A DNA stretch of 64,000 nucleotides from Zobellia uliginosa. GTDB taxonomy: Bacteria > Bacteroidota > Bacteroidia > Flavobacteriales > Flavobacteriaceae. The notes under the pieces were generated by a model. That model was not told where the DNA came from. It ran no database searches and worked only from the letters and a program-made list of their open reading frames with translations. The translations under genes were made by a program, and so were the position numbers. Shown here piece after piece: positions 1,200 to 29,648 of the stretch. The stretch's first letter is position 1. The number at the start of each line of letters is the position of its first letter. The stretch is taken from positions 248,001-312,000 of the forward strand of contig NZ_FTOB01000004.1 in the NCBI RefSeq assembly GCF_900156625.1, read 5' to 3'.

Positions 1200-1233
1200 T
1201 CTTTATTCCGTATATTATGTAGTTTGTCCGTAA

Positions 1234-1277
1234 AACCTTGATTTAACCCTTAATTTAAGGTTGAGGACGATTTTTTT
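1234..1277 (+). terminator. Possible weak terminator after fabD
   Basis: AACCTT at 1234-1239 and AAGGTT at 1257-1262 end a 13-bp imperfect stem (two mismatches) with a CCC loop. A run of seven T at 1271-1277 follows after about 8 nt. The offset between stem and T-run makes this a weak candidate. Confidence 0.3.
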
Positions 1278-1350
1278 AGTAATATTGACGCCCATTTAGC
1301 CACGACCTACTTTATTTGCTGTGTATTGAATTTGTATTCAAAGGACAGTT

Positions 1351-5055: not shown

Positions 5056-5063
5056 TACGGATA

Positions 5064-6047: not shown

Positions 6048-6056
6048 TATTAGACT

Positions 6057-11042: not shown

Positions 11043-14000
11043 ATGAAAAAAATTACTCTCCTGACCGTATTGGTTTTGTTGACCACATTTACTTTTGGGC
11101 AGACCCCGTGTGCCCCTATTAGTACCTTAAACTGTGCAGAAATAGCATCTGAATTGCCTTTGAATCTAAGTTTTGACGGTTCGGATACAGGGATTCTCAA
11201 TTCCGGATTTACCATGGTAGATCCACCATCTTCCCGATTGGCGGCAGATGATCTTGGTGCCGACCCGAACGTGCCCGGACTCTTATCTGACCATATTTCG
11301 ATTAGTGGCGGAAGCCTAAACGTTACGGCGACCAAAGGGATAAATTACAGCCAACTCTCGGGGAGTCCCAATAGTACGCTTACCAATTCCCAAGTGAACG
11401 CCCTTGGCACCGGATTCTCCATAGGAAGTGATGTAATAGAGGTCTCCGCTACCATAGACCAACCCGATTTTACAGGTACGGCGGGTAACAATTCGCAACA
11501 GGCGGGTATATGGTTGGGGCTCAATGAAGACAATTATGTAAAATTGGTAGTCGTAAAAAGTTCTGCTACCGAGCAAAAAATACAGATGCTCCTAGAGCAG
11601 ACCAATCCAGCAAATTCGGCAAATTTGATCCTGTCGGAGTTCAATACTTCGGTCTTCGAGGCCAGTACGGTAGCTTCCATAGGGTTCAAACTTGTGGTCG
11701 ACCCTTCCGATAACTCGGTAAGGGGCTATTACAGTTTAGACGGAGGTGAAATGCTTCAAGTAACGGGGGCTGCTGATTTTATGACGACACCGACTTCATT
11801 TTTTACTGGGGTCGACCACGATAACGATGGGGCAAGCGCTGCTTTGACCTATGCCGGAATCATGACCTCCACAAGAAGGGCGACTTCTGGAAACATGGTA
11901 GTTTCGTATAAGGATTTTTCTATTGAAGAAATCGTCTTGGCCAATTCTGAAACCGACATTTTAACTTTTGTACTCCTAGACGAGACTGGGGATGCGCTAA
12001 TAGATACCGAAGCGCATACCATAAACATAGAAGTGGGTAGTACTACAGACCTAACGGCCTTGGCCCCGCAGATTACACTTTCTTCGGGGGCCAATAGTAC
12101 TCCGGCATCTGGAGTGCCCGTTGATTTTAGTAATGGTCCGGTGTCCTACATCGTTACGGCGGAAGATGGCGCTACGACCCAAGATTGGTCGGTGATAGTA
12201 GTTAAGGAAGAACTTCCCTTTGAGGCCCATATCAATTTTCAGGATAACCCTAGCGAGACAATTCCTCCTGCCGGATATTTGGCCGACTACGGAAAAGCCT
12301 TTGGTAATGCTGCCGTTGACTTGAATGGGAATAGCTACGGCTATGGTTGGAAACTGGCCGCTTCAGGTAATCCTTATGATGCTTCAGAGGAAGTTGCGGG
12401 CAACTCCACTGGGGTCGGTCGTATGCGATTAGGGAATATATCGAATTATAATGCAGCTCCACTTCAGGAAAAATTGGAAGGGACCCTCGTGCATTTTCAA
12501 GGGGACAATATTTCAGGTTGGGGCAACACCCAGGCCCGAAAGAACGAACTGTTCTGGGAAATGGAAATTCCTAACGGCGTCTATGAGGTAACCATAGGAC
12601 TTGGGGATAAGGCCGAGGGGAATACCGATAGCCGGCACAGTGCTACCGTTGAAGGGTATTCCATTATTTCCGCTTTTGCTCCCGCCGAGCAGGAAGTACG
12701 TATTTCCACTATGGTGGTACAGGTATCCGATGGCCTGTTGACAGTTGATGGAACAGGTGGATTTAACTCCAAAATCACGCATATCGATGTGGTGGAAACT
12801 ACCGCAAGCCCCGTAAACGGAATATTGGCCTTTACTCCGGCTACGGCGGACCAAACCCTAGAAACGGGGGCAAGCACAAGCTTTGTCGCCGAGTTGGCCG
12901 GCACAGGTGCCGTTGATATTGGTTTGGCCATTAATGATAATGTTGACGAAACCACTACTAACGGTTGGCTTACCCTTCCTGAAAAAAGTGATATCGGATC
13001 ATACGAATTTACTATGGACGGAACTTCCCTCGTAGTTGGGGATGCCCGAAGCGCACAGGTTATTGCTACGGCAAAGGGGTTTGTTCCGGCCGTATTGGAT
13101 ATTGACTTGACGGTTACGTCGGTTGTGCCTTTATCATTTTCCTTTGTAGATGATTTTGATGCCTATGCCTTGGGTAACTTACATGAGGTGGCACCCACGC
13201 AATGGCTCAAAGAGAAGCCTGCCGATGTAGGCATACCGGTTTTAGGGGAAGGCATTACCCCAAACACCACCCAGTCCCTTGATTTTTCCAATGGGGCCCA
13301 TACGCACGACTTGATACCTTTAACGGAAGCCCCGATAACCTTGGAGGCCGACCAGCCGTTTTATTTTAGTACCTATTTTAAGGTGGGTAGCGTAAGCAAC
13401 CGCGTCCGTACCGCTATTCTCATCGCGGATGATGTGCCCGGAGATCAATGGGTAAGGGAACAGGTGGCCAGTGATGGCAATAGTGGCCTTATAGCCCGAA
13501 TTGGCTTGGGAGGTCCCGGTTCCGATAACGGAAATTTACCGGTAGATTCTGATAAGACCTTCCAGTTTGTGGTAAAAGGCGAATGGGATGGGGCAGGTAC
13601 TATTAACTATTCCTGGACCATTGAACCTAAGCTCGATTTGTCCCAGACAGTATGGACCTCGGCAGGAAGCCATACAGTAGAGGGAACCCCCAAGATCGAT
13701 CGCTTGTTCATCAGTTCGGTGGGTACCAACGATGCTAAAATTGGAGGGATACGCCTCGCTTCGGATTATTCCGTAGTAGTGACCGAAGAATTGAATACGG
13801 CTCCCCTTATAGAAGATCAAGAATTTTCTATCGCGGAAGATGCTCCTGTGGGGACTTCCATCGCCACCGTAGTGGCATCCGATTCAGACCCTTTGACCTA
13901 CGCGATTACCGCAGGTAACGATAATGGAACCTTTGCCATAGATCCCAACAATGGGGAACTGACTACCTTAATTCCCTTGGATGCCGAAACCGTAGCGCAA

Positions 14001-17000
14001 TATGTACTTACGGTCGAGGTCGGTGATGGAACGAATACGGTTTCTGCCCAAATCACGGTCAATATTGATGACGTGGTTGAGGCCTCGCCCTGTAGCCCCT
14101 TGAGTTCGTTGCCTTGTGATCAATTGGAAGCATCACTGCCCTTATCGCTCGATTTTACCATAGCGAATGGCAAATTGTCCGACTCGGGCTTTACCATGGT
14201 GTTGGAACCGAGTGCCAGGTTGGTTTCTGACGACGGCCTTGCCGATGAAAATATAACCGGATACGCCCCCAGTCTTGTGGGACGGGATGCTTCCGGACTC
14301 TCAATAACAAGTACTAAAGGTATTTTTTACAGTCAGTTGCCCGCTCAGGGCGCACCGAATAGTACGGAGACCAATTCACAAATGAATGCCTTGGGCCTTG
14401 GTTTGCCCGTACCGTCAACCGTATTCAGCGTATCGGCTACTCTCGAAAATCCCGATTTTTCCGTCAGTGCCGGAAATAATTCACAACAGGCAGGTATTTG
14501 GTATGGGCTTGATGAAGACCATATCGTAAAATTGGCGGTCGCAAAAACGGGGAACACCACCAGGAAAGTTCAGCTGCATTTAGAGAATATGGATGGGACT
14601 TCCTCACAAACGGCCTACTTTGAATTGAATACGGGTAGTTTGGCATCAAATACGGGTGATATTAAGCTGCGTATGGAATTTGACCCCGTAAATAATACGG
14701 TTTCGGGGTATTATTCACTTGACGGGGGAACCGAAGTCTTGGTCTCCCAAGGCGGAACGAACAGTTTGTCCGTACCGGCCAGTTATTTTTCAGGAAGTAC
14801 CTACGATACCGAAAATCAGGCACAGCTATTGAACTTTGCCGGTATATTCACCACACACAGAAGAGCGGATGTCGACCAAAGCATTACGGCCCTATTTAAA
14901 GATTTTGCCGTAGAAGGGGAGCCAGAACCCTTAGTTCTTTCCTTCGATATCAACGAGTTGAATTTTAGCGGGGAACAGGGCTCCGATATCGCTACGCAGA
15001 GTGTTAGCGTTTCTGCCAGCTCGGGTAACCCTACTTTTGTGCTTTCCGATGATCCCGATGCGGCTTCGTGGTTGATCTTGCCAACGGATCCGGTATTGGG
15101 CGAAATAGAATTTGAGGTTCGCTCGGATATTCCCGTAGGCACCTACGGGACCACCGTTTTTGCAAGCGATCAACCTGATTTGGGCTATGCCAATGCGGAA
15201 ATGACGATCAATTTGGAAATTACCGAAGCGGTCAATGATTTTGCGGTAAACATTAATTTTTCAGATCAGGCTACGGCCGCTCCGGCAGGTTATGAAAAAG
15301 ATGGGGGTGATGCCTATGCGGATAGGGGCAATGGTTTTTCATATGGATGGTTGGATGCAACTACATCACAGCCCGCCGATTTGACCAAAAATGGGAGAAA
15401 CAGGGTCGTCTCAGGGGTGAGTGAGTTGAACAACACCTTGATACATATGCAATATGGAGATGTTTCCTCCAACGCTTCCAATGGTTATCTGGCCGATGCC
15501 AAATGGGAAATTGAAGTGCCGAACGGCGATTATTTGGTAACGGTTTTCGTAGGTGACCCCGATGTCGATACTCCTGCGTCGAATACTCCCGCCCATAGGA
15601 TAAATGCCGAAGGGGTAACTTTGGTAAATGACTATGTGCCTACGGGTACGGCCGGTGCAAGTTCTAGGTTTACATCGGAAAGCGCCATAGTAAATGTTAG
15701 CGATAATAGATTGACCCTTGATCCCTTGGGCGGATCCGGTAAGAATACAAAAATCAATAGTGTGCAGATCGTGGCCACTTCTGTGGGGATACAGACCCCA
15801 AAGGTAGTCGGGATAACCCCTCCTGACGGAGCTACGGGGGTATCGGTGAGCACTAGTGTTTCCGCCAATAACCTCTTTCTTCCAAACTCCGATACCAATG
15901 GTAATGCGGGGGTTGATAATACGACCATAACCAATGCTACGGTACGCTTGTTTAAACAGGGGAGCACTACCCCTATCGGGGCCAGTGTTAATGGAACCGG
16001 TGGTGGCGATGCCATTAATTTGGTGCCGAACCTTCCATTGGAGGCCAATACCGTTTATGTTTTTGAAATTGATGGGGTGTTGGATTTGGTAGGCGAACCT
16101 TTCGAATTCTTTACTTCTTCATTTACTACAGGTGATGGAAATGCCGGACCGGTTACCGATTTAGACAACGTTTCATTTACCAATGCGGGCGTCGTGGGGT
16201 CAAATGGAAAATATTCGACCCTTACCATAGGACCTGATGACAAGTTGTACGGATTGGAAATCTCTGGGGATATTCACCGATGGAACATCGATACGGACGG
16301 AACCTTGACCGATGAGGAAGTACTTACGGCTTGGAAAACCGCTTATGGGGGAAGTCGCACTTCCGTGGGGCTTGTTTTTGATCCTGCGGCTACCTCATCT
16401 AACTTGATTGCCTACGTTTCCCACGATTCGGGAGGCTTGAATAGCGCTCCGGATTGGGATGGGAAAATATCTAAACTCACTGGGGCCAACCTAGAAAACG
16501 AACAATTACTGGTGACCGATTTACCCCGGTCGACCAAAGATCACTTGACCAATAGTCTTACGTTTAGGCCTGGTGAACCCAATGTGATTTATTTTAACCA
16601 AGGGAGTAATAGCGCCGCGGGGAAACCCGATAACTCTTGGGGCAATAGGGAAGAAAGTTTATTGACGGCTGCAACCCTTAGATTGGATCTTTCCCTTCTA
16701 CCGGCTACGCTACCCTTGAACGTACGGACCACAAGGGATGCCATGGCGATAAATAACGTGGATGTCAATTCCCCGACCTTGGATGGCTTGTACAATCCGT
16801 ATTACGTAAATGCACCTTTAAAATTGTTCGCTACAGGTATTCGTAATGCCTACGACTTGGTATGGCATTCCAATGGGCAATTGTACGTTCCGGCAAACGG
16901 AACTGCTGGAGGTAGCAATGCTCCGGCATCTATTGATGGCACAAGACGGCCCGATGGTTCGTTCTATGATCATAGCAATCCTTTGTACCCTGTTGTTCCT

Positions 17001-20000
17001 TTTTCGAACGGAAACAATGTACAGCGCGATTGGTTGTTCAGGATTAACCCTAATACCACTATGGGGTATTACGGTCATCCGAATCCGTTCCGAGGTGAAT
17101 TTGCTTTGAACCGGGGTGATATAGATGTTAGTAAATCGGCCTATGACGGAGTGCAACCTGATGAAAATTATAGGGGGGCGGCCTTTGATTTTGAATTCAA
17201 TAAATCGCCCAACGGGGTTATCGAATATCGGAGTAATGCCGAAAACGGAAACTTAAAAGGTGCCTTATTGGTCGTTCGTTACAGTGGGGGCAGTGATATC
17301 ATCGCCTTGGTGCCTGACGGACCAGGAGGGGATATATCGACCTTTAAGGAGGGAATACCTGGATTTACAGGTTTTCAAGATCCCCTAGATTTAGTAGAGG
17401 ATACCTCTAACGGAAATATATATGTATCGGACTATGGAAGAAGCCAAATCGTATTGCTGAAACCTAGTAATCAGGCTTCGCCTACACCACTTATCGTATT
17501 GGATACGGAAAAGGTAACAGGTGATGCTATTTCCAATTCGGGATCTTTCACGAGCGAGATTTTGTTGTCCAATTTAGGAAATGCCAGTTTGATGGATGTC
17601 CAGGCCCAAATTTCGGGGGCAGACCAAGATCAGTTTTCGATTGTCGGATTGCCCACTTCGATAAATGCCCAGAATTCGGCCTCGTTCCAGGTGGTGTTTA
17701 CACCCACATCGAACGGACCTAAATCGGCGGAATTGACCTTGACGGGCACCAATGCCGAACCCGTAGTCGTGTCATTGAACGGTCTGGGTAAAACGGGACT
17801 GGGAGGAAATAATGAGCCTTCATTACAGTGGATATTGGATACCCATTTGGGCGATGGCGCCGTAAATGTGGGAGATACCGATCCGACGACCAACCTTATC
17901 AATTTGCCGAATGGCAGCGGTTATAATGATATTTTAGGTGATGAAGTGGCCGTTCAAAAATTTGAAAGGGCCGTTGATGCACCGGTTACGGTTGAATTGT
18001 TAAGTTTATACGGTCCTACCAATACCACTCCGGTAGTGGCATTTGGATGGTATGTTAGTGGCGATGCGAATACTACGTCAGAATTGTTTACAGTTTCCAA
18101 TAGTCCCGCGAGTAACGGACAGACGCTTAACGCTCCGATCGTGGGGGCAACCGAGTTTGACCCAGGAGCGGTGAGTTTTGGTTTCTATAGTCGATGGCCA
18201 TTCTTTGGCGACCGACATTTGTTTAGCGAAGATGCCCTCAATACATTCGCCGATGCCATTCCGCATCATGTGAGGGTATATGAGCTTCCTGGGGAAGAGA
18301 ATGCCTATATTATTGCAACGGAGGAACATGTTTCCGGGTTTGACTACCAAGACATTGTCGTCATTGTCAGAAACATCAAACCCTTTGACGATGCCCCTAG
18401 CCTTGCTTGTTCCCCTATTAGTATTTTAGAATGTGACGAGCTTGAAGTAAACTTGCCCTTCTCTTTGAATTTTGATGGGACCGAAGGCGGATTGGCCAAT
18501 ACAGGCTTTACCATGGTCGATAATCCCTCGGCAAGGCTTGCGGTAGATGGCACCCCTTATAATCTAAATGTTCCGGGGTATGAACCCGGTAGGATAAGCT
18601 TGTCCAATGGCAATCTGGTTCTAAATGCCGCGAATGGTATCGCCTATCTGCGTAATGGTCCAGGTGCTGGGACGAGTACAGATGTAAATTCACAGATCAA
18701 TACCTTGGGGGTAGCCGTCGATGCCGATAGCTACGGAAGTTTTAGTATAGAAACCTCCTTGGTGAATCCATATAGCGATGGCTCCAATAATTCCGAGCAG
18801 GCCGGATTGTGGTTCGGTCTCGATGAGGATAACTATGTAAAGCTGGTGGCTTCAAATGGTAATAGGGTAGAATTACTGGCTGAGGTAGCAGGGCTTTCGG
18901 CAACCTCACAATCTATAAAGGCCGATGATATTACGGACTTACATTCGAGCAACGTAGGTCTACGGTTATTCGTCGATATTGAAAACAACCTACTTGTCGG
19001 ATATTACTCCTTGAACGGTGGAGCCGAGGTTGAAGTGGGTTCTTTGCCGCTGCCCTCGGGTTTTGTTGCCGGGAATTCTTCTTATGATGACTTGTCTTTC
19101 GCGGGTATCTTCAATACAAAACGAAGGGAGGCCACGGCCAATGTAAATCATACTTTTGAACTTTTTAGGATAGTTTCCGATGATGTAGTGGCCTTTGAGC
19201 CGGTGAAGATTAATTTTTCGCTTCCTGAAGACGTACCACCTTCAGGGTATCTGGTAGATTCCGGTTTGGCCTATGCCGATCGAGGTAATGGATATAGTTA
19301 CGGTTGGTTGGCTACTGACGGAACAACGGGCTTGGACCTCTCCGAAAGGGCTCGTAATAGAGGAGTTGCGGGGGTAGATATTTTGCAAAATACCCTAATA
19401 CATATGCAGTATCAAAATGTAAAGCCTGAGGGGCAAGAGGGTATTTGGGAAATGGAAATACCCAATGGAAATTACACGGTGGCCGTAGGTGTAGGTGATC
19501 CTAATGTTGATGGTCAGGCGGGTACGGAACCTTTTCATACCATAAACATTGAAGGTGTCAATGCCATAAATAGGTATTCGCCCACCGGGGTCGAGGGCGC
19601 TTCTACCAGGTTCACCTCGGGAGTGGCCGATGTAACGGTTACCGACGGTAGACTTACCATAGATGCTTCCGGTGGTTTCAATACAAAATTGAACTCTTTG
19701 GAAATTACCCAAGGCAGTGGTGTTGTCCAGCCGTATTTCGCTAATGTTAATCCCGCCGATAATGCCAACGATGTGAGAATTGAAGATTTTCAGATCAACG
19801 TTGAGGTTATCGTTCCTGATGATTATGAGATAGATAATAACACCCTTGCGGGCAATATCAACCTATTTGAGGTTACCGCGGGCGGAGATGTCGTGGTGCC
19901 TTCCAATTCTAATGATACGGGAGGGGGAGACGCCATTACCTTGACTCCGATTCAAGAATTAAAGGAATTTACGACCTATCGCTTTGTTCTTACGAGTGAC

Positions 20001-23000
20001 ATTGAGGCAAACCGAAGGGGCGATTTAAATGATAGAATACCCTTCCGCGCTTTTGAATCTACATTTGAAACGGGTGAACTCGATGATGGAACCATACCTA
20101 TCCGAGATTTGACAGGAGTTGAATTCATCAAGGTTTCGGGTGTGGCCAATTTAGGCCCCGGTGTAGATAACCAACGTTTTTCGAGTTTGGTCATCGGGCC
20201 CGATGGTAAGTTGTATGCCAGTACCATTGGCAACTTTAATTCAGATGGCCAAATTTATAGGTGGGATATGGCCATTGATGGCACTTTGAGCAATTTAGAG
20301 ATTTTAAGTCCACCCTTACAAGGCTCGCCCCATCCTGAAACGGGCGCTAGGGGCAACGATGACCGATTGATCATTGGTTTGGCATTCGATCCCGCATCCA
20401 CTGCCGATAATCTTATTGCCTATGTAACCCATAGCAAGGCCTCTATTTCGGGCGGACCGGAATGGGATGGTAAACTGTCGCGTTTGACCGGACCGGATTT
20501 GTCTACGGTAGAAGATCTTGTTATCCATTTGCCCAGGTCGGTAAACGATCACTTGACCAACAGTATAGCTTTTGATGCCCAAGGCGATTTATATATCAGC
20601 CAAGGTAGTAACTCGGCAGGGGGTAGCCCCGATGGCAATTGGGGCAATAGGCCCGAACGCCTTTTGGCCGCGGCTATCTTAAAGTTGGAATTGGACAAAT
20701 TGCCCAATAGCCTACCCTTGAGCGTGTATACTACCGACGATATTTCGGTAATCAACGCCGCTCCAAACGGTAGTCTGCAAATGAGTGATGCTACCTATAA
20801 TCCGTATGCGACCAATTCCCCCTTGACCATATTCGCATCGGGTATTCGTAATGCCTATGACCTGGTATGGCATTCCAATGGTTGGTTATATGTGCCTACC
20901 AACGGAACCGCCGGTAATAATAATAGTTCGCCCAATTCGCCTTCAACTTCTGATTATCCGTTGGCAAGGCGTATCGATGGCTTGAGCACAATTCCCAATG
21001 CTCCTAAATTACTAGGTGGCGAAACACAGAAAGATTGGTTGTTCAAGACCAAGGGAGGATCGTATCATGGCCACCCCAATCCTTATAGGGGTGAGTTCAT
21101 CTTGAACCACGGTGGTATTTCATACAGTGGATTACCCGGTCAGGTGGAGGCCTCCTATACCGATGTGGGCAAATACCCCGATGATTTGGCTCCGGATCCA
21201 AATTATCGTGAACCTGCATTTGATTTTGGAAAGAACAAATCGCCCAACGGGGCCATAGAATATAAGAGTGATGCCTTTGAAGGAAAATTACAGGGCCTTC
21301 TTATGGTAGTCCGTTTTAGCGGACAGGACGACTTATTGGTATTGGACCCCAAATCAAGCGGCGATATTGCCGAAGCCTATAGTAGTATTCCGGGACTTAG
21401 TGGTTTTGATGACCCATTGGATGTGGTGGAAGATCCCACAACAGGGAATATCTATATTTCGGAATACGACCGCGACAATAACGGAACTGCTCGATTGACC
21501 CTGCTAAGGGCGGCCACCCCGGCAAGCATGGGGCCATCCATAGTGGCTACTCCCGATGAGCTCATTTTTGAAGCGACAACGAACAACGAAGGAAGCAACA
21601 CCGATACAAAAACGGTAGAGATAAGCAATGACGGTAATGCCGTGCTGCATATTTCGAGTGCAAGCCTAACAGGTACTTTCGCAAGTCAATTCAGTGCTGT
21701 TCAACCCTCCGGATCCGTAACGCTAAACCCAGGGGAAAGTCAAATATATACGTTGACCTATACGCCCAGTTTAGACGGAACGGACTTAGGTTATCAAGAT
21801 GCTGTACTTACTTTAGAAAGTGATGATACAGATACCCCCAGTCTTGAAATAGGATTGCACGCCTTGAAAAAATCCGGTTTTGAAGGAGGTCAGGAACCTG
21901 CCTTGCAAGATGTTGTCGATGCTTTGGGTATTGGTATATCCGTAGGATGGACCTCCTTGTCCAGCTCCACGGATCCTGCTCCTGTAGGTGATGAGGTAGA
22001 AGTGGAAAGATGGGTGAAGGCATCCGAGCAACCCGTTAAGGTTACTCCCGTTGGACGCTATTCCCCAAGGGAAGAATTGCCTTTCGGCTGGTATACCAAC
22101 GATGGAACTGTGGTCACCCATGAAGTAGGGGTGCTGGCAGATGATATAGCAAATGCACAGACCCTATTTCCCCCCATTGCCTCAGGTACCGACACCTTTG
22201 ATCCCCAAGGCGCGGTATTCGGATTCTATGTGGAATCGCAATCCTTCGGTAGGTTCAATTATACCGAAGATGCAATTAATACCGGGGGAGTGGCCCATAG
22301 GGTTAGGATATATCCCGTAAATGATAGGGAAGGAAATGCCGTTGAAAATAGCTACCTCATAGCTTTTGAGGATGCCTCCAATGGCGATTATCAAGATTAT
22401 ATGTTTATTATCGATAATGTAATTCCTTTCGAAAGTGGCATACTGGCCTTGGATTTTGATAAGGAGGATATGGGTTTCTTTACTTCGATCAAACAAGAGA
22501 ACGTGCCTCTACAATCATTGACATTAAATGGTAACGGAGGGATTACCTCATCAGAAATAAACTTGCAAAGCACCGAAGAATGGGTCGTTCTTCCCGATAC
22601 CTTTGAAATGGGTACGGCATTTGAAGTGGGCGTCGATGTTTCAGGTTTGCCCATCGGGTCTTATGTGGCTACGATCAGCGCTTCGGCGGCAAACTATGAA
22701 AGTGACGCTGTAAGCATTGCCTTGGAAATTACCAACGAGTTGGTCTATACCTATCAGTTCAATTTTCAGGACCCGGATGAATTGGAGGTATCCCCAGAGG
22801 GATATATCGATGATGTCGGTGCCCCTTATGGCGTACAAAATACCGTTCTCGGAGACCTTAACTATGGGTGGGTCATACCAGGTACGCTTACCCCGGCCGA
22901 TGCCGCCGCCAATGCAAGGAATAGAAATACAGGTGCGAACGACGATGCCTTGGTGAAAACCTTTTCCATTATAGGCCATAGGTCGGCCAATACCTATCCG

Positions 23001-26000
23001 CTTCGCGATTGGATAGTAGAGGTGCCTAATGGTATATACTCAGTGAATATTGGTGTTGCCGGTGATCCCGATTATGCGGACAGCAACCATGTCTTAGAGG
23101 TAAATGGGGTTGTTGTGGTCGATTATGATCAAGAAAGTATCGTTCCCGAGAATTTTGATAGTTTCCAAAATACCGAACGGGTAGAGGTAACCGATGGTCT
23201 GCTACGATTGTCTTTGGCTCCCGCCGGAGATAACGCCAAGGTGAGCTATATTCGATTGGCCCCTATTGACAGCTCCTTGTTACCTCCAACTATTTTGGCG
23301 ACATTCAATGGAAATGAAAGAGCTCCCGATGTGTTTAGGGGAGCGGTAAATATCGCTCTAGAGGCTACCGATGAAAGCGGAAGTGGAGGAATAGCCTTTA
23401 TAGAATATGTGCTTGATGGGGCGCCGGTTGAAAGCTATACCGATGCATTCGATATAGCCGACGAAGGAGACCATATCCTTGTCGTTACGGCCGAGGATAA
23501 CAATGGTAATAGTTTTGCCAAGACGTACAACTTTACTATAGAAACCCCAACGGGTGCTTTGTTGGCCATAGAAAATATGACCAAGGTACCGGGTACCGAT
23601 AGAGGTTTTCCGGCAGATGATTATTATACCTTTTATCGCTTGGGCAGTCCGGGCTCCGCTCAATTTCATGATACAAATGTCATGCGCTTGAATAATACGG
23701 GTACGGGTGATTTAGTCGTGACCGAAGTCAATATATCCGACGCCAACGACTATACCTTTGAATTACTCGATGCGAACGGGAACACGGCCCAATTGCCTAT
23801 AACGATTCCGTCAGGAAGTTATGCCGATGTAGATATCACCTTTATAGCGACTACGGGAAGTGGCAACAATGGCATTTTTGTAGAAGATATCGAAATTGTT
23901 TCGAGTGCGGACAATGCGTTGAACAGTACCGCCGTGCTTCACGGAGGTTACGCGCCCCAGCCTGAAGGAGGGGACGAAATCAATGCCCAGGAAGTTTTCG
24001 ATGCCTTTGGTTTCCAATCTAGTATGTTGAGTATTGTTAACGATGAGGGAAGCATTACCCCGCCCAATAATCTTACCTATAGACCAAGTTCCAATTTTCC
24101 TATTGCGGCAAATATTGAGGCTGGATATGAAGGGGATTTGATTTTGAGCGATGCTTTTGTTCAGGCAGACCCAAATCAACCGGTTATCGGTATTCAATTA
24201 TCGGCCTTACACGGTAGCGGTTCAAACGGAGCCCGATTTGTTGAGGTCGAGGGTACGGAAACCGTTGGTGGAATCAGTTTTTCGCATACGGGAAGCAACT
24301 ACCAGACCTTATTGCCCAAGAATAGTTCGGGAGTAATCAATTTTGATACAAGTAATTCGATTTCCGAGCCTTTTAGAATTGCGGTTGCCAATTACCTAAC
24401 GACTGGAGGAAACAATATTTCAGGACGTAGACCTGACTTGTTGGGGGCGAGGGTTTACAAGGTAATCGACCACAATGGCAATATAGTTCCGAACGAATAT
24501 ATCGTATTGCAAGATTTTGTTCAGAACGGTTGCGGTGCGGGATCGGCAAATTGTGATTGGAACGATAATACTTTTTATTTCATAAACATCCGTCCTCAGG
24601 CCGTACCGACGGCGCAGCCCGACCAAGAGTACTTGGCCAATGCAGGGGAGGCGTTCAGTATAGATGTCGCCTCGTATTTTGACAAAGGATATGCGGGTAA
24701 TGAGTTGACCGTAACAGCTACGGTAAACGGGGGAAGCCTTCCGGCTTGGATGACCTATGACGCCCAGGCCGCTACGGTTTCGGGTACGGCACCCATAGAT
24801 GCTATGGGTAGCGTGCCCGTGGTGTTGAACGCGGTAGACCTCAATGGTCTTACGGCCAGCACAACCTTGACGGTCGCTATTAACGAAGCTCCGCTTGCCG
24901 TGGGTGATGATATAGAAACAACTCAAGATACGGCCATTCTTTTGGAAGGCTTGTTGGCGAACGATACGGAGCCTAATGGTCAGGCCATTACGATTGTTAC
25001 CGTAGATACACCTCAAAATGGTGAAGCCGTGCTTCAAGGCGATGGGCTCTCCGTTTTGTATACGCCCGACGATGGTTATGTCGGTTCCGATAGTTTTGAG
25101 TACACGATTGAAGATGAAACGGGACTGTCGGCTACGGCAACGGTTTCCATAACCGTTACCCCTCAGAATCAAGCTCCGGTAGCCATGCTTCAAAGCAGTG
25201 TACAAGAAGGGGAGGCTGCCTTGTATGTTGAGTTTGTGGGCAGTGGGTCGACCGATGAAAATCCGGCTACGTTACGATACGAGTGGAATTTTGGAGATGG
25301 GACGGCAAATAGTACCGATCCCGATACGAGCCACACCTTTACCTCGGTTGGTGTTTACACAGTCGTCCTTACCGTTATAGATGATGGGAATTTAATAGGA
25401 ACGGCATCGACGACGATTACGGTTTCGGCTCCACCTAATACAGGGCCCACCGCTGTTGCCGCAGTCACACCATTGAACGGGGCCAACTCCCTATCGTTTA
25501 ATTTTGACGGTAGTGCGTCGAACGACCTCGAAGGATCGCTCGGCTATCTCTGGGATTTTGGGGATGGAAATACGGCTACTACGGCCATTGTAAACCATTC
25601 CTATGCCTTAGCAGGTGTTTATGATGTCTCCTTGACGGTTACCGATGAAGGTGATTTGGTAGATGCGGTTACGGTACAGGTAGAGGCCAAAGAGGCTGTG
25701 GTGTCCGACTTTGCCTTGAGGATTAACGTAGGTGGCCCAGAGCTTGTTTACCAAGGGGAAACCTTTGTACAGGATCAAGGCTTCGTTGGCGGTAAGGTAT
25801 TTGAAAATGCGAATGCATTGGTGCCTGAGTTGTACCAGACGGAGCGTAGTGCTAGCCCACCTGTATTTGATTATAACCTTCCCTTGGAGAATGGTACCTA
25901 CGAGGTGACCCTGCACTTTGCCGAAATTTATTGGGGTGCTACAAGTGGAGGCTCCGGAGGCATAGGAAAGCGTGTTTTTGATGTTTCTTTGGAAGGAAGC

Positions 26001-29000
26001 ACCGTGCTTGATGATTTTGATATTAATCTTGTATCAGGTCCGGAAAGCCCAGTGGTACGAACGTTCGAGGTTGTGGTACAAGACGGTGTTCTAAATATGC
26101 ATTTTGATGCAGGGGGCGCCAATGGTATCGATCAACCCAAACTATCGGGTATTGAGATATTAAGTAAAGATGATGCGCTTCTTCCTTGTGCATTGCCTGA
26201 TGCTTGGGCCAATAACGATATAGGCTCGGTTCAAATAGCGGGAGAAACCTGTTTTGAGAACGGTAGATATGAGGTCAGTGCTTCAGGTGCCGATATTTGG
26301 GGCAGTGCCGATGAGTTCCATTTCGTATATAGGGAGTTGACCGGTGACGGTGAAATCGTTGCGCAAGTAATGAGTTTGGAGGCAACCAGTGTCTGGGCCA
26401 AAGCAGGGGTCATGATGAGGAATGATCTGGAGGCCAATTCGGTTCTTGCCCAAATGATTATCTCGCCCAATCCCAATAATTTGGGAGGTGTAGGACATAG
26501 TTTCCAAGATCGTCCTCTAAAGGGTGCGGCAATGGGTAGTGCCAACTTTACAACGCCACAATCGGTTCCGGGAGGCTTCCCCCACTATGTGCGATTGGTG
26601 CGATTGGGTAATACCTTTACCGGATATGTTTCTGAAACAAATGGAAATTGGACCCTCGTCGGATCGAAGGTCTTGCCTATGGACCAAACGATCTTTGTAG
26701 GCCTGGCCACCACTTCCCATAACGATGATGAACTTACGACGGCAGTATTCGAGAATGTAAGTGTTCAGGAAGAAACACAAGAGAACCAGGCACCATACGC
26801 ATCCATAGGGACAAATGTTTCTACAGGAACGGCTCCTTTGGTCGTGAGTTTTGATGGCAATGGTTCTAGTGACGATAAAAATATTGTAAGCTATTCTTGG
26901 AACTTTGGGGATGGCACGGCAAATGGTTCAGGAGCTCTTGTTGAACATACATTTACCAATGCAGGGAGTTTTGATGTTACCCTTACCGTTGCCGATGAGG
27001 AAGGTGAAGTTGGTGTGGATGTGGTGACTATCGTCGTTGAAGCAGCGAACGAGGCACCCGAGGCCGTGGCTACGGCTACTCCCTTAAATGGGGAAGCTCC
27101 TTTGGAGGTGAGTTTTACAGGAAGCAATTCAACTGATGACGATGGTGCGGAAAACCTAAATTTCGCATGGTCGTTCGGAAACGGTGATACGTCATCGCTA
27201 GCTGATCCGGTCTATGTTTATAACACTGAAGGAACCTATACCGTAAGCTTAACGGTGACGGATTCAGAAGGACTTACTGATCAGGAAACCCTGACCGTGG
27301 TGGTCGCAGAGCCGGTGGTAGTAGGTGATTTTGCCTTGCGAATCAATGCGGGAGGGCCACAATTGACCCATAATGGTGAGGTGTACGTGGCAGACCGTGA
27401 TTTTGTAGGAGGTAAATCTTATACGAATACCAGTGCCGAAGTACCTGAATTATACAAGACCGAACGTAGTGCGCTGCCTCCTAATTTTGGCTATGACATT
27501 CCATTGGCAAACGGTGAATATCAGGTAACCTTACATTTTGCAGAGATTTTCTGGGGGGCTACAGGTGGAAGATCGGGTGCTGTAGGAAAACGTGTGTTCG
27601 ATGTGGTCATGGAAGGAAATACCATTTTGGACGATTACGATATCTTCGATGAAGTGGGACCACAGACCGTGGTGACCCGAACGTTTGACGTAACCCTTGT
27701 CGACGGCGTGCTAAACCTTGGTTTTGATGCCAATGCACCGGATGGGCGAAACGAGCCCAAGTTGTCGGCCATTGAGATTGTTAGTGTAGGTGCCGTCAAC
27801 GAAGGGCCGGTCGCTTTTGCCAGTGCAACGCCTTTAAATGGTGTGGCACCGCTAGAAGTGAACTTTAACGGTAGCGGCTCGATCGATGACGTGGAAGTGC
27901 TCTCCTATACATGGGACTTTAAAGATGGCGGTAGTTCTACACAAATGAATCCCGTTCATACCTTTGTTGATCCTGGTGCGTATGAGGTCAGTTTGACCGT
28001 TGCCGATGCCCAAGGGAAGACCGATACACATACGGTCACCATCCAGGTAGATGAGCCCGTTGTCAACGACTTTGCCTTACGGATCAATGCCGGTGGACCT
28101 GAAATGACCCATAACGGTCAGGTGTTTGCGGCCGACCAATACTTTGTGGGAGGCAAGGCGTATACCAATGCGAGTGCCAATGTACCCCAGTTGTATAAAA
28201 CCGAACGCAGTGCCTTGCCACCGGTCTTTGCCTATGATATTCCTGTTCCGAACGGAAGCTATCAAGTGGTGCTCCATTTTGCCGAAATCTTTTGGGGCGC
28301 CCAAGGAGGGGCTTCGGGGGCTGTAGGCAGACGTGTCTTTGACGTAGAAATGGAAGGCGCTAAAATACTCGACGATTTTGATATTATTGCGGAATCAGGT
28401 TCGGAGACCATAGTGATAAAAAGCTTTAATGCGACTATCGAGGATGGTCAGTTGAACTTGGTCTTCGATGCGGAAGGCAGCGATGGTAGAAATGAACCCA
28501 AACTGTCGGCCATTGAGGTCATAGGAAGCGGCGCCGTACTTCAGTTCGATCCTGTGGCCCATGCCGGTGATGATATTGAAATCGATTTGTCGGCCAATGA
28601 AACCAGCTTGGTGGGAAGCGGCCATGATCCTGACGGTGGGGCCGTAAGTTACCAATGGTCCCAGGTTTCTGGTCCGGATACGGCCATTTTGACCAATAGC
28701 AATACACTGGAGTTACAGGCCGTTTTCTTGGTCGAAGGAGTATATGTACTGCGACTTACGGTTACGGATGATGAAGGCCGAACCGCTTTTGACGAGGTCG
28801 CTGTTACGGTAAATAACGATGCCCAAGAAGAAGTTTGGTTAGAGGCGGAGTGTGGTGTGCTTGGTTCGGGATGGACCGTTGTCGAGGATTCTTCCCGATC
28901 AGGAGGCAATTATGTAGTGCCGCCCGCAGGCTTTAATTCTTCCTCGGGAAGTATAGGGGCAGCGGTATTGACCTACAATGTGTCGGTAAGCGAAGGTACC

Positions 29001-29648
29001 TATGCTATTTTCGGACTCGTAAGGACGCCGTCTGGTGTCAACGATAGTTTCTGGATCCGTGTGAACAACGGGGCGTGGGTACGATGGAACAGTATTCCTG
29101 CCAGTAATGAATTCGTATGGCATAGGGTACACCTTAACGAGCAATTGAGCAAACCTCGAAGTTTTGAGCTTATAGAGGGTATCAATAAAATTGAAATTGG
29201 CCACAGGGAAGATGGCCTGGGGCTCGATAAATTGTTCTTGACCAAAACCGGCGACCTGCCTTCCGGTCTTGGGGGTACGGCCTCGAATTGTGGAGGTAGT
29301 GGAAAAACGTTCGAAGAACAAATTATCGCAGGAAACTTAGAAGTAGAAGCAATAGCCGATACCCAGTTCTATAGCGAAAAGGTTCCTAATGCAGTACATC
29401 TGTTCCCTAATCCCGCGGTAGTGCAAACCAAAATAAGGTTAGATAACCCGGAGGTCGAGATTGCACAGGTACGCATTTATGAAGCCTCGGGCCGATTGAT
29501 CGGTGTACACCAAGGAGAAGCTCTGAAAACGGGTGAGGACGAATACGAATTGAACGTTTCCGGTTTAACGAACGGAGTGTACTTCCTTCGAATAGCCATA
29601 AGCGACGGAGAGGTATTTGATCGTAAACTGATCGTTGACCACCGCTAA
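11043..29648 (+). CDS. Giant 6201-residue T9SS-secreted modular carbohydrate-binding protein
   Basis: An exported protein with a signal peptide (about 1-19) and a type-A T9SS sorting domain (about 6118-6201: LFPNPAV, VRIYEASGRLI, GVYFLRI). Approximate order: concanavalin-like module (23-300); galactose-binding-like module with a Y-G-W motif (396-586); BACON-like (590-694); concanavalin-like (695-918); cadherin (919-1013). A unit of concanavalin-like, Y-G-W, Big_5-type Ig, glucose/sorbosone-dehydrogenase-like propeller, ASH-like and DUF4114-like modules then occurs twice (1016-2452 and 2454-3798), and a third time without the concanavalin and propeller parts (3799-4520). A cadherin-like pair follows (4520-4707), then PKD 1-2 (4708-4886), malectin 1 (4887-5043), DUF1349 (5048-5243), PKD 3-4, malectin 2 (5428-5581), PKD 5, malectin 3 (5675-5830), a REJ/PKD module and a CBM6-like module (5930-6071). 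Likely role: binding and possibly oxidising extracellular sugars; the substrate is unknown. Single intact frame; a strong terminator follows. Confidence 0.9.
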   Translation: MKKITLLTVLVLLTTFTFGQTPCAPISTLNCAEIASELPLNLSFDGSDTGILNSGFTMVDPPSSRLAADDLGADPNVPGLLSDHISISGGSLNVTATKGINYSQLSGSPNSTLTNSQVNALGTGFSIGSDVIEVSATIDQPDFTGTAGNNSQQAGIWLGLNEDNYVKLVVVKSSATEQKIQMLLEQTNPANSANLILSEFNTSVFEASTVASIGFKLVVDPSDNSVRGYYSLDGGEMLQVTGAADFMTTPTSFFTGVDHDNDGASAALTYAGIMTSTRRATSGNMVVSYKDFSIEEIVLANSETDILTFVLLDETGDALIDTEAHTINIEVGSTTDLTALAPQITLSSGANSTPASGVPVDFSNGPVSYIVTAEDGATTQDWSVIVVKEELPFEAHINFQDNPSETIPPAGYLADYGKAFGNAAVDLNGNSYGYGWKLAASGNPYDASEEVAGNSTGVGRMRLGNISNYNAAPLQEKLEGTLVHFQGDNISGWGNTQARKNELFWEMEIPNGVYEVTIGLGDKAEGNTDSRHSATVEGYSIISAFAPAEQEVRISTMVVQVSDGLLTVDGTGGFNSKITHIDVVETTASPVNGILAFTPATADQTLETGASTSFVAELAGTGAVDIGLAINDNVDETTTNGWLTLPEKSDIGSYEFTMDGTSLVVGDARSAQVIATAKGFVPAVLDIDLTVTSVVPLSFSFVDDFDAYALGNLHEVAPTQWLKEKPADVGIPVLGEGITPNTTQSLDFSNGAHTHDLIPLTEAPITLEADQPFYFSTYFKVGSVSNRVRTAILIADDVPGDQWVREQVASDGNSGLIARIGLGGPGSDNGNLPVDSDKTFQFVVKGEWDGAGTINYSWTIEPKLDLSQTVWTSAGSHTVEGTPKIDRLFISSVGTNDAKIGGIRLASDYSVVVTEELNTAPLIEDQEFSIAEDAPVGTSIATVVASDSDPLTYAITAGNDNGTFAIDPNNGELTTLIPLDAETVAQYVLTVEVGDGTNTVSAQITVNIDDVVEASPCSPLSSLPCDQLEASLPLSLDFTIANGKLSDSGFTMVLEPSARLVSDDGLADENITGYAPSLVGRDASGLSITSTKGIFYSQLPAQGAPNSTETNSQMNALGLGLPVPSTVFSVSATLENPDFSVSAGNNSQQAGIWYGLDEDHIVKLAVAKTGNTTRKVQLHLENMDGTSSQTAYFELNTGSLASNTGDIKLRMEFDPVNNTVSGYYSLDGGTEVLVSQGGTNSLSVPASYFSGSTYDTENQAQLLNFAGIFTTHRRADVDQSITALFKDFAVEGEPEPLVLSFDINELNFSGEQGSDIATQSVSVSASSGNPTFVLSDDPDAASWLILPTDPVLGEIEFEVRSDIPVGTYGTTVFASDQPDLGYANAEMTINLEITEAVNDFAVNINFSDQATAAPAGYEKDGGDAYADRGNGFSYGWLDATTSQPADLTKNGRNRVVSGVSELNNTLIHMQYGDVSSNASNGYLADAKWEIEVPNGDYLVTVFVGDPDVDTPASNTPAHRINAEGVTLVNDYVPTGTAGASSRFTSESAIVNVSDNRLTLDPLGGSGKNTKINSVQIVATSVGIQTPKVVGITPPDGATGVSVSTSVSANNLFLPNSDTNGNAGVDNTTITNATVRLFKQGSTTPIGASVNGTGGGDAINLVPNLPLEANTVYVFEIDGVLDLVGEPFEFFTSSFTTGDGNAGPVTDLDNVSFTNAGVVGSNGKYSTLTIGPDDKLYGLEISGDIHRWNIDTDGTLTDEEVLTAWKTAYGGSRTSVGLVFDPAATSSNLIAYVSHDSGGLNSAPDWDGKISKLTGANLENEQLLVTDLPRSTKDHLTNSLTFRPGEPNVIYFNQGSNSAAGKPDNSWGNREESLLTAATLRLDLSLLPATLPLNVRTTRDAMAINNVDVNSPTLDGLYNPYYVNAPLKLFATGIRNAYDLVWHSNGQLYVPANGTAGGSNAPASIDGTRRPDGSFYDHSNPLYPVVPFSNGNNVQRDWLFRINPNTTMGYYGHPNPFRGEFALNRGDIDVSKSAYDGVQPDENYRGAAFDFEFNKSPNGVIEYRSNAENGNLKGALLVVRYSGGSDIIALVPDGPGGDISTFKEGIPGFTGFQDPLDLVEDTSNGNIYVSDYGRSQIVLLKPSNQASPTPLIVLDTEKVTGDAISNSGSFTSEILLSNLGNASLMDVQAQISGADQDQFSIVGLPTSINAQNSASFQVVFTPTSNGPKSAELTLTGTNAEPVVVSLNGLGKTGLGGNNEPSLQWILDTHLGDGAVNVGDTDPTTNLINLPNGSGYNDILGDEVAVQKFERAVDAPVTVELLSLYGPTNTTPVVAFGWYVSGDANTTSELFTVSNSPASNGQTLNAPIVGATEFDPGAVSFGFYSRWPFFGDRHLFSEDALNTFADAIPHHVRVYELPGEENAYIIATEEHVSGFDYQDIVVIVRNIKPFDDAPSLACSPISILECDELEVNLPFSLNFDGTEGGLANTGFTMVDNPSARLAVDGTPYNLNVPGYEPGRISLSNGNLVLNAANGIAYLRNGPGAGTSTDVNSQINTLGVAVDADSYGSFSIETSLVNPYSDGSNNSEQAGLWFGLDEDNYVKLVASNGNRVELLAEVAGLSATSQSIKADDITDLHSSNVGLRLFVDIENNLLVGYYSLNGGAEVEVGSLPLPSGFVAGNSSYDDLSFAGIFNTKRREATANVNHTFELFRIVSDDVVAFEPVKINFSLPEDVPPSGYLVDSGLAYADRGNGYSYGWLATDGTTGLDLSERARNRGVAGVDILQNTLIHMQYQNVKPEGQEGIWEMEIPNGNYTVAVGVGDPNVDGQAGTEPFHTINIEGVNAINRYSPTGVEGASTRFTSGVADVTVTDGRLTIDASGGFNTKLNSLEITQGSGVVQPYFANVNPADNANDVRIEDFQINVEVIVPDDYEIDNNTLAGNINLFEVTAGGDVVVPSNSNDTGGGDAITLTPIQELKEFTTYRFVLTSDIEANRRGDLNDRIPFRAFESTFETGELDDGTIPIRDLTGVEFIKVSGVANLGPGVDNQRFSSLVIGPDGKLYASTIGNFNSDGQIYRWDMAIDGTLSNLEILSPPLQGSPHPETGARGNDDRLIIGLAFDPASTADNLIAYVTHSKASISGGPEWDGKLSRLTGPDLSTVEDLVIHLPRSVNDHLTNSIAFDAQGDLYISQGSNSAGGSPDGNWGNRPERLLAAAILKLELDKLPNSLPLSVYTTDDISVINAAPNGSLQMSDATYNPYATNSPLTIFASGIRNAYDLVWHSNGWLYVPTNGTAGNNNSSPNSPSTSDYPLARRIDGLSTIPNAPKLLGGETQKDWLFKTKGGSYHGHPNPYRGEFILNHGGISYSGLPGQVEASYTDVGKYPDDLAPDPNYREPAFDFGKNKSPNGAIEYKSDAFEGKLQGLLMVVRFSGQDDLLVLDPKSSGDIAEAYSSIPGLSGFDDPLDVVEDPTTGNIYISEYDRDNNGTARLTLLRAATPASMGPSIVATPDELIFEATTNNEGSNTDTKTVEISNDGNAVLHISSASLTGTFASQFSAVQPSGSVTLNPGESQIYTLTYTPSLDGTDLGYQDAVLTLESDDTDTPSLEIGLHALKKSGFEGGQEPALQDVVDALGIGISVGWTSLSSSTDPAPVGDEVEVERWVKASEQPVKVTPVGRYSPREELPFGWYTNDGTVVTHEVGVLADDIANAQTLFPPIASGTDTFDPQGAVFGFYVESQSFGRFNYTEDAINTGGVAHRVRIYPVNDREGNAVENSYLIAFEDASNGDYQDYMFIIDNVIPFESGILALDFDKEDMGFFTSIKQENVPLQSLTLNGNGGITSSEINLQSTEEWVVLPDTFEMGTAFEVGVDVSGLPIGSYVATISASAANYESDAVSIALEITNELVYTYQFNFQDPDELEVSPEGYIDDVGAPYGVQNTVLGDLNYGWVIPGTLTPADAAANARNRNTGANDDALVKTFSIIGHRSANTYPLRDWIVEVPNGIYSVNIGVAGDPDYADSNHVLEVNGVVVVDYDQESIVPENFDSFQNTERVEVTDGLLRLSLAPAGDNAKVSYIRLAPIDSSLLPPTILATFNGNERAPDVFRGAVNIALEATDESGSGGIAFIEYVLDGAPVESYTDAFDIADEGDHILVVTAEDNNGNSFAKTYNFTIETPTGALLAIENMTKVPGTDRGFPADDYYTFYRLGSPGSAQFHDTNVMRLNNTGTGDLVVTEVNISDANDYTFELLDANGNTAQLPITIPSGSYADVDITFIATTGSGNNGIFVEDIEIVSSADNALNSTAVLHGGYAPQPEGGDEINAQEVFDAFGFQSSMLSIVNDEGSITPPNNLTYRPSSNFPIAANIEAGYEGDLILSDAFVQADPNQPVIGIQLSALHGSGSNGARFVEVEGTETVGGISFSHTGSNYQTLLPKNSSGVINFDTSNSISEPFRIAVANYLTTGGNNISGRRPDLLGARVYKVIDHNGNIVPNEYIVLQDFVQNGCGAGSANCDWNDNTFYFINIRPQAVPTAQPDQEYLANAGEAFSIDVASYFDKGYAGNELTVTATVNGGSLPAWMTYDAQAATVSGTAPIDAMGSVPVVLNAVDLNGLTASTTLTVAINEAPLAVGDDIETTQDTAILLEGLLANDTEPNGQAITIVTVDTPQNGEAVLQGDGLSVLYTPDDGYVGSDSFEYTIEDETGLSATATVSITVTPQNQAPVAMLQSSVQEGEAALYVEFVGSGSTDENPATLRYEWNFGDGTANSTDPDTSHTFTSVGVYTVVLTVIDDGNLIGTASTTITVSAPPNTGPTAVAAVTPLNGANSLSFNFDGSASNDLEGSLGYLWDFGDGNTATTAIVNHSYALAGVYDVSLTVTDEGDLVDAVTVQVEAKEAVVSDFALRINVGGPELVYQGETFVQDQGFVGGKVFENANALVPELYQTERSASPPVFDYNLPLENGTYEVTLHFAEIYWGATSGGSGGIGKRVFDVSLEGSTVLDDFDINLVSGPESPVVRTFEVVVQDGVLNMHFDAGGANGIDQPKLSGIEILSKDDALLPCALPDAWANNDIGSVQIAGETCFENGRYEVSASGADIWGSADEFHFVYRELTGDGEIVAQVMSLEATSVWAKAGVMMRNDLEANSVLAQMIISPNPNNLGGVGHSFQDRPLKGAAMGSANFTTPQSVPGGFPHYVRLVRLGNTFTGYVSETNGNWTLVGSKVLPMDQTIFVGLATTSHNDDELTTAVFENVSVQEETQENQAPYASIGTNVSTGTAPLVVSFDGNGSSDDKNIVSYSWNFGDGTANGSGALVEHTFTNAGSFDVTLTVADEEGEVGVDVVTIVVEAANEAPEAVATATPLNGEAPLEVSFTGSNSTDDDGAENLNFAWSFGNGDTSSLADPVYVYNTEGTYTVSLTVTDSEGLTDQETLTVVVAEPVVVGDFALRINAGGPQLTHNGEVYVADRDFVGGKSYTNTSAEVPELYKTERSALPPNFGYDIPLANGEYQVTLHFAEIFWGATGGRSGAVGKRVFDVVMEGNTILDDYDIFDEVGPQTVVTRTFDVTLVDGVLNLGFDANAPDGRNEPKLSAIEIVSVGAVNEGPVAFASATPLNGVAPLEVNFNGSGSIDDVEVLSYTWDFKDGGSSTQMNPVHTFVDPGAYEVSLTVADAQGKTDTHTVTIQVDEPVVNDFALRINAGGPEMTHNGQVFAADQYFVGGKAYTNASANVPQLYKTERSALPPVFAYDIPVPNGSYQVVLHFAEIFWGAQGGASGAVGRRVFDVEMEGAKILDDFDIIAESGSETIVIKSFNATIEDGQLNLVFDAEGSDGRNEPKLSAIEVIGSGAVLQFDPVAHAGDDIEIDLSANETSLVGSGHDPDGGAVSYQWSQVSGPDTAILTNSNTLELQAVFLVEGVYVLRLTVTDDEGRTAFDEVAVTVNNDAQEEVWLEAECGVLGSGWTVVEDSSRSGGNYVVPPAGFNSSSGSIGAAVLTYNVSVSEGTYAIFGLVRTPSGVNDSFWIRVNNGAWVRWNSIPASNEFVWHRVHLNEQLSKPRSFELIEGINKIEIGHREDGLGLDKLFLTKTGDLPSGLGGTASNCGGSGKTFEEQIIAGNLEVEAIADTQFYSEKVPNAVHLFPNPAVVQTKIRLDNPEVEIAQVRIYEASGRLIGVHQGEALKTGEDEYELNVSGLTNGVYFLRIAISDGEVFDRKLIVDHR
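25700..28530 (+). repeat. Three malectin-domain repeats inside the giant gene
   Basis: Three copies of a malectin (di-glucose-binding type) module at about 25700-26170, 27325-27785 and 28065-28530. Each opens with FALRIN and GGP, then has a LY-TERSA motif, a YEVTLHFAEI-like strand, a GKRVFDV-like strand and a closing PKLS-IE. Copies 2 and 3 are closest. At the DNA level they differ often at third codon positions while the protein stays similar, so the similarity is kept by selection rather than by a very recent duplication. PKD modules separate the copies. Confidence 0.85.

Follow-up and report, generated by a model that had tools for sequence, protein, structure and literature searches.

A giant predicted T9SS cargo of Zobellia uliginosa with an old pair of dehydrogenase-like propellers and a mosaic gene interior

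The 64,000-nucleotide stretch of Zobellia uliginosa DNA analysed here (the window) encodes a 6201-residue protein in which a block of six modules stands twice, each copy containing one β-propeller of the glucose/sorbosone dehydrogenase-like (GSDH-like) kind. Phylogenetic comparison points to an old doubling that has stayed at two propellers, and the gene itself is a mosaic among the Zobellia species that carry it. We tentatively favour a protein that would be exported by the T9SS, anchored at the surface and bind glycans, and whose two propellers might oxidise sugars, an activity suggested by the sequence and a structural model. Zobellia is a marine genus that degrades algae and seaweeds, and an unnamed giant becomes in this way a testable object, a conserved dehydrogenase-like domain pair predicted to lie on the surface of such a bacterium.

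The gene lies at positions 11043–29648 of the window (+ strand) and is a single uninterrupted frame of 6201 codons and a stop, as the original prediction had stated. The type-A T9SS sorting domain proposed for its C terminus was likewise recovered, scoring 50.7 bits against PF18962 (cut-off 27) and 46.6 bits against TIGR04183 (cut-off 23), and residues ~1–20 look by eye like a typical Sec signal peptide. Indeed, a profile search listed 34 PF18962 places in this genome, 30 of them above the cut-off, and the genome encodes T9SS machinery, with SprA at 2875 bits against TIGR04189 (cut-off 200), a profile for which none of 14 control genomes was positive. Among the homologues, a Persicobacter protein has a Por_Secre_tail match (35.6 bits) and the complete Cyclobacterium lianum frame has none at E 0.001; T9SS export need not be common to all homologues of the giant. 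In the available parts of a study of Z. galactanivorans on fresh macroalgae, T9SS components and T9SS-translocated proteins are reported as induced, and these parts hold no mention of the giant gene (PMC9296495).

In a tiled self-BLAST, residues 1017–2449 aligned with 2456–3797 in order (best E 3e-83, far above chance) in tiles 35–53% identical, which bears out the predicted off-diagonal match between residues 1016–2452 and 2454–3798 (units 1 and 2; Table 1). Both units run in the order concanavalin-like, Y-G-W, Big_5, propeller, ASH-like Ig and DUF4114-like, and unit 2 is without the Ig-like linker of unit 1. The partial copies expected before and after the doubled unit were also found. Upstream, residues 21–295 are 44% identical to 1015–1291, residues 9–294 are 36% identical to 2439–2710, and the Y-G-W stretch at ~385–587 is 30% identical to 1400–1580 and 32% to 2710–2890; downstream, residues 3860–4078 and 4418–4518 are 25–34% identical to the matching modules, no Big_5 or propeller being found in the degenerate third copy to which they belong (~3800–4525). 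The tail (~4660–5938) is a separate PKD/malectin repeat, with best tiles at 49–62% and others lower. Several of the module names used here rest on below-cut-off profile matches; malectin domains scored above cut-off in the profile search of the giant. The unit 1 Y-G-W module had no Pfam match, and the best PDB match of the Y-G-W profile was yxiM (2o14; E 0.04). The propeller and DUF4114-like profiles had no match up to E 1 in the PDB sequence search, and the DUF4114-like model had no Foldseek match at E ≤0.001, its best weak rows being C2 domains.

Table 1. Modules of the giant gene in window coordinates
Feature	Residues	Positions	Strand	Basis
Giant gene, one frame	6201 aa	11043..29648	+	orthologous frames 6204, 6204, 6210 aa
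Signal peptide, putative	~1-20	11043..11102	+	inspection
N-terminal extra concanavalin-like module	21-295	11103..11927	+	44% to 1015-1291; GH43_C2 below cut-off
N-terminal extra Y-G-W module	385-589	12195..12809	+	tiled self-BLAST
Cadherin domain	927-1008	13821..14066	+	PF00028 60.8 bits, cut-off 28.8
Unit 1	1016-2452	14088..18398	+	tiled self-BLAST
Unit 1 concanavalin-like module	1016-1300	14088..14942	+	self-BLAST; GH43_C2 17.4 bits, below cut-off
Unit 1 Ig-like linker, not in unit 2	1301-1396	14943..15230	+	self-BLAST; weak Cohesin match only
Unit 1 Y-G-W module, probably galactose-binding-like	1397-1590	15231..15812	+	profile match to yxiM 2o14, E 0.04
Unit 1 Big_5 Ig-like domain	1591-1700	15813..16142	+	PF13205 27.9 bits, cut-off 23.6
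Unit 1 GSDH-like β-propeller; His1834, Arg1934, Asn1935	1701-2145	16143..17477	+	AlphaFold, Foldseek, conservation
Unit 1 ASH / choice-of-anchor-D-like Ig	2146-2261	17478..17825	+	below cut-offs
Unit 1 DUF4114-like module	2262-2452	17826..18398	+	alignment; model pLDDT 82
Unit 2	2454-3798	18402..22436	+	tiled self-BLAST
Unit 2 concanavalin-like module	2454-2709	18402..19169	+	tiled self-BLAST
Unit 2 Y-G-W module	2710-2897	19170..19733	+	tiled self-BLAST
Unit 2 Big_5	2898-3010	19734..20072	+	PF13205 23.8 bits, cut-off 23.6
Unit 2 GSDH-like β-propeller; His3170, Arg3269, Asn3270	3011-3494	20073..21524	+	PF07995 27.1 bits, cut-off 25
Unit 2 ASH-like Ig	3495-3614	21525..21884	+	below cut-offs
Unit 2 DUF4114-like module	3615-3798	21885..22436	+	13.8 bits, below cut-off; alignment
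Degenerate third copy: Y-G-W and DUF4114-like parts	~3800-4525	22440..24617	+	self-BLAST
He_PIG and Big_9 domains	4526-4704	24618..25154	+	profile search
PKD / malectin tail, GH115_C-like module at end	~4724-6078	25212..29276	+	GH115_C below cut-off
T9SS type-A sorting domain	6120-6201	29400..29648	+	PF18962 50.7 bits; TIGR04183 46.6 bits

The original prediction recognised the propeller fold correctly and missed its glucose/sorbosone dehydrogenase type. The AlphaFold model of the unit 1 propeller, the only one modelled (pLDDT 93, pTM 0.92), has PQQ/sugar dehydrogenases, AA12 and sGDH among them, in Foldseek rows 1–9 (E between 2e-13 and 2.5e-10), the best match being 6jt5 (E 2e-13, TM 0.58/0.63, rmsd 8.3), at an identity to the solved dehydrogenases of only 14–16%. 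PF07995 exceeds its cut-off in the unit 2 propeller (Table 1) and has no match up to E 5 in that of unit 1. Furthermore, a profile comparison with the GSDH-type proteins of the same genome aligned DHLTNS to the His motif and GIRNAYDL to the RNP motif, although its score is inflated by one near relative of the query among the three proteins of that set.

The fold alone proves no enzyme, since HHIP, a heparin-binding protein of the same fold, stands tenth in the Foldseek list, and again twelfth to thirteenth, among the dehydrogenases. It is quite possible that the giant has a structural role alone, as an adhesin or in the matrix, and that its propellers serve, as in HHIP, as binding platforms without catalysis; both the loss of the PQQ-carboxylate contacts and the binding or spacer character of the remaining domains would fit such a role. 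The conservation of the reaction centre argues against it. With sGDH numbering carried over through alignments of an Asd-like protein of this genome to sGDH, the equivalents of His144, Arg228 and Asn229 each occur in 120 of the 121 propeller rows, including both copies in the giant, and in 51, 50 and 50 rows, respectively, of a hand-picked 51-row alignment. Among the 121 rows, the exception for His is a cytochrome c paralogue of the same genome and that for Arg/Asn is an X. In the profile alignment, the position of Lys377 is taken by Ser (119/121), that of Arg406, which we take to be a PQQ contact, by Pro (120/121), and that of Arg408 by Asp or Glu (116/121). The roles of sGDH His144, Arg228, Asn229, Lys377 and Arg408 are given in the available parts of two sources, according to which AA12 enzymes bind PQQ without Lys377 and retain one of the two Arg, Arg621, which is common to sGDH and Asd (PMC6881789, PMC6881810). 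Together, the alignments indicate that a dehydrogenase-like reaction centre is retained and that the known PQQ-carboxylate clamps are lost; PQQ use by the propellers is possible.

No CxxCH haem motif occurs in the giant protein, a point that weighs against oxidation, as do the lost clamps and the low identity to the solved enzymes. In the genome, pqqE scored below cut-off and pqqC had no match, in a search in which no positive control exceeded the cut-off either. Two other frames of this genome carry related domains: a 581-residue paralogue (L058, 5716–7458, contig C16) combines a GSDH-like propeller lacking the trio His with a cytochrome c domain, and a 2086-residue frame (L172; C13:646502–652465) has a GSDH domain, a sub-threshold Por_Secre match and, by eye, a PKD-like stretch.

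Both propellers and the gene as a whole are under purifying selection. In three species pairs, dN/dS is 0.03–0.05 in both propellers versus 0.09–0.12 for the whole gene (against the relative G006, 0.037 and 0.031 versus 0.094), and every module with a finite estimate has a value of 0.30 or lower.

Of the claim that the protein grew by repeated duplication of a multi-domain cassette, the duplicated block and its conserved order stand, and the recent or repeated growth does not. In a 121-row propeller tree, from which two partial hits had been dropped, all 26 second propellers fall into one 29-row clade without first propellers (SH-aLRT 100), and all 27 first propellers into one 49-row clade without second propellers (SH-aLRT 98). 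A longer 83-row alignment, made after the removal of 25 near-copies and of rows whose upstream sequence was too short, again separated first from second propellers (support 100/100 and 100/98), and a first propeller is nearer to its counterparts in other families than to the second propeller of its own protein. Recent tandem growth was ruled out by these separate clades, which span four families and thus point to an old doubling. A scan of named genomes, from which the best 80 of 302 relatives were kept, gave 79 loci, 23 of which have two propellers in one frame (12 in Flavobacteriaceae, 10 in Cyclobacteriaceae and one in Saprospiraceae). No frame at these loci has more than two, and the mix of domains, thought to be unusual, is not so in the phylum. 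The gap between the propellers is 856–879 residues in 21 of the 23 proteins; 22 of the frames run past the sequence examined, and one second propeller ends at a contig end.

The same core is found in a 6062-residue Croceitalea homologue that ends at a contig end (~60% identity over unit 1) and in a 5637-residue homologue from a Persicobacter plasmid (~58%). Tiles covering residues ~1206–4700 match their own counterpart best in these two proteins; the exception is the unit 1 concanavalin-like module (1017–1299), which matches another copy better. A PKD/malectin tail is also present in the Persicobacter and Cyclobacterium lianum proteins, so that its gain after the doubling, as originally proposed, is no more than possible. 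The Persicobacter gene (L029, CP012861.1) lies on a 632-kb plasmid. Its second propeller falls beside that of Croceitalea (97/99), and its first is placed, unsupported, with Robertkochia (86/27); the plasmid homologue hints at transfer between orders. Arenibacter echinorum has a two-propeller frame of at least 7039 residues, open at its end (L101, 311–21428). A fixed-word search of open PMC literature, covering titles and the starts of abstracts, returned no description of this protein family.

As to how the double block arose, internal duplication seems likelier than a fusion of paralogues; fusion is still in play because the propeller kinds of units 1 and 2, sisters in the best tree, have a support of only 34/94, and an alternative grouping is not rejected (p-AU 0.365). 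A fusion of two paralogous genes, in place of a duplication within one gene, would also agree with seven Mucilaginibacter/Hufsiella loci in which two single-propeller frames are neighbours (L147, L151, L154, L155, L159, L162, L168), and with Neolewinella aquimaris, where a single contig carries a unit-1-type frame and, within a few kb of it, a unit-2-type frame (L115, L167). We nevertheless consider it somewhat unlikely, as both copies share six modules in the same order and the N-terminal partial copy is nearer to unit 1. The first N. aquimaris protein (L090) also keeps a second ASH/DUF4114-like part without its propeller.

The genes that flank the giant's site, proC and a DUF218 gene, were found in all nine Zobellia genomes; the giant stands between them in four and was not found in the other five. 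Three of these five (G001, G008 and G004) have proBA at the site, where no remnant of the giant was seen as a protein match up to E 1, and at the locus in G002 and G007 there was no match to proA, proB or Nramp (L181, L182). In G001 and G008, another gene, GNAT acetyltransferase-like by eye, occupies the giant's place (L178/L179, ~4290–5457). A single gain in Zobellia with the carriers as one clade was rejected by four core genes (AU p 3e-5), and on their tree at least three changes are needed. The giant of Kriegella sp. EG-1 adjoins the same DUF218 and Nramp genes, and its divergence at 4-fold sites (0.73) is like that of these neighbours (0.75 and 0.70); from the shared neighbours and the similar divergence, the giant was probably at this site before Zobellia and Kriegella separated. 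Elsewhere in the window, a DUF6786 family protein is encoded at 33943–35205 (548 bits).

Synonymous divergence suggests exchange between species in the interior of the gene. Between this genome (G000) and two other carriers, G003 and G005, nearby core genes are near synonymous saturation, the lowest of 22 and 17 windows being 0.64 and 0.65, whereas 27 of 31 giant windows (G000–G003) and 26 of 31 (G000–G005) lie below every core window. In the close pair formed by G000 with the remaining carrier, G006, 12 core windows were compared and none of the 31 giant windows falls under the least diverged of them; with the giant at core level there, codon constraint was rejected as the cause of the low synonymous divergence. 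Divergence is heterogeneous along the gene (chi-square p 4e-32 versus G003, 1e-67 versus G005 and 4e-3 in the close pair), with the last 600 residues near saturation versus both G003 and G005 and the first 400 versus G005 only. Furthermore, G005 is nearer to G000 in 21 of 31 windows, nearer to G003 in nine and tied in one, which contradicts the core tree. Since synonymous divergence is far below that of core genes and the pattern is mosaic, pieces of the gene appear to have moved between species, and repeated homologous recombination within the giant is the simplest reading. The gene interior thus appears to have been exchanged across species that are otherwise near synonymous saturation, with nearby core genes as the control, and five of the nine species are without the gene at this site.

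A gliding-motility adhesin like SprB would have a similar size and a T9SS tail, and genes for a CHU_C cargo (1234 aa), a PorP/SprF protein and an OmpA-family protein do stand in a row 3–10 kb upstream (window 1351–7994), yet such a function is very improbable for a protein whose tail is of type A, whose domains are of lectin, propeller and malectin kinds, and whose gene was not found in five of nine Zobellia genomes. Long repeats may collapse or duplicate in assemblies, and an artefact of this sort is refuted, its probability being negligible, by the equal length and module order in three other Zobellia assemblies and by copies that are so little alike. Indeed, among eight further Zobellia genomes, three have full-length orthologues without inner stops, with identities over copy 1 of 97, 93 and 91%, so that the frame break an independent assembly might have revealed did not appear, and one of these assemblies (G006) is a single contig.

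In the glycan-binding, possibly sugar-oxidising protein that we tentatively favour, the Sec signal would act together with the sorting domain at the C terminus to export the giant through the T9SS to the surface, where the concanavalin/lectin-like, Y-G-W and malectin modules would hold algal or matrix sugars and the Ig, cadherin and PKD parts would act as spacers. The two propellers would bind, and possibly oxidise, sugar ends, presumably with PQQ or a like cofactor and with electrons passed to a partner. A bolder proposal, which we think unlikely, is a cell-surface double oxidoreductase: a T9SS giant with two old, non-identical, sugar-oxidising propellers that kept the trio and rebuilt the cofactor pocket. 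The pair would have been maintained in Flavobacteriaceae, Cyclobacteriaceae and Persicobacteraceae, and mosaic pieces of the gene would have moved between Zobellia species at one site. The rebuilt pocket would then imply that scavenged PQQ is used in a new way, or that another cofactor is.

Several known systems resemble parts of the giant. It shares the propeller fold, the catalytic His and the Arg-Asn pair with sGDH (1c9u), Asd (2g8s) and AA12 (6jt5/6h7t), and differs from these GSDH propellers in its low identity, in the Ser, Pro and Asp/Glu at Lys377, Arg406 and Arg408, and in having two propellers in one huge protein without a haem motif. HHIP has the same propeller fold class but is an animal protein, represented in the Foldseek list also by structures with heparin. 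SprB of Flavobacterium johnsoniae, 669 kDa according to the available part of its source (PMC7807042), is like the giant a T9SS-exported surface protein, export being predicted for the Zobellia protein, which differs in its type-A tail and its lectin, propeller and malectin domains. Giant1–5 of Apilactobacillus kunkeei are likewise giant surface-protein genes, for which the part of the source available reports intragenic recombination and homogenisation (PMC12863079), although they belong to another phylum and have other domains. The proteins of Cyclobacterium, Arenibacter, Algoriphagus, Croceitalea and the Persicobacter plasmid, among others, are direct homologues with the same double block, in which the N-terminal part and the PKD/malectin tail vary.
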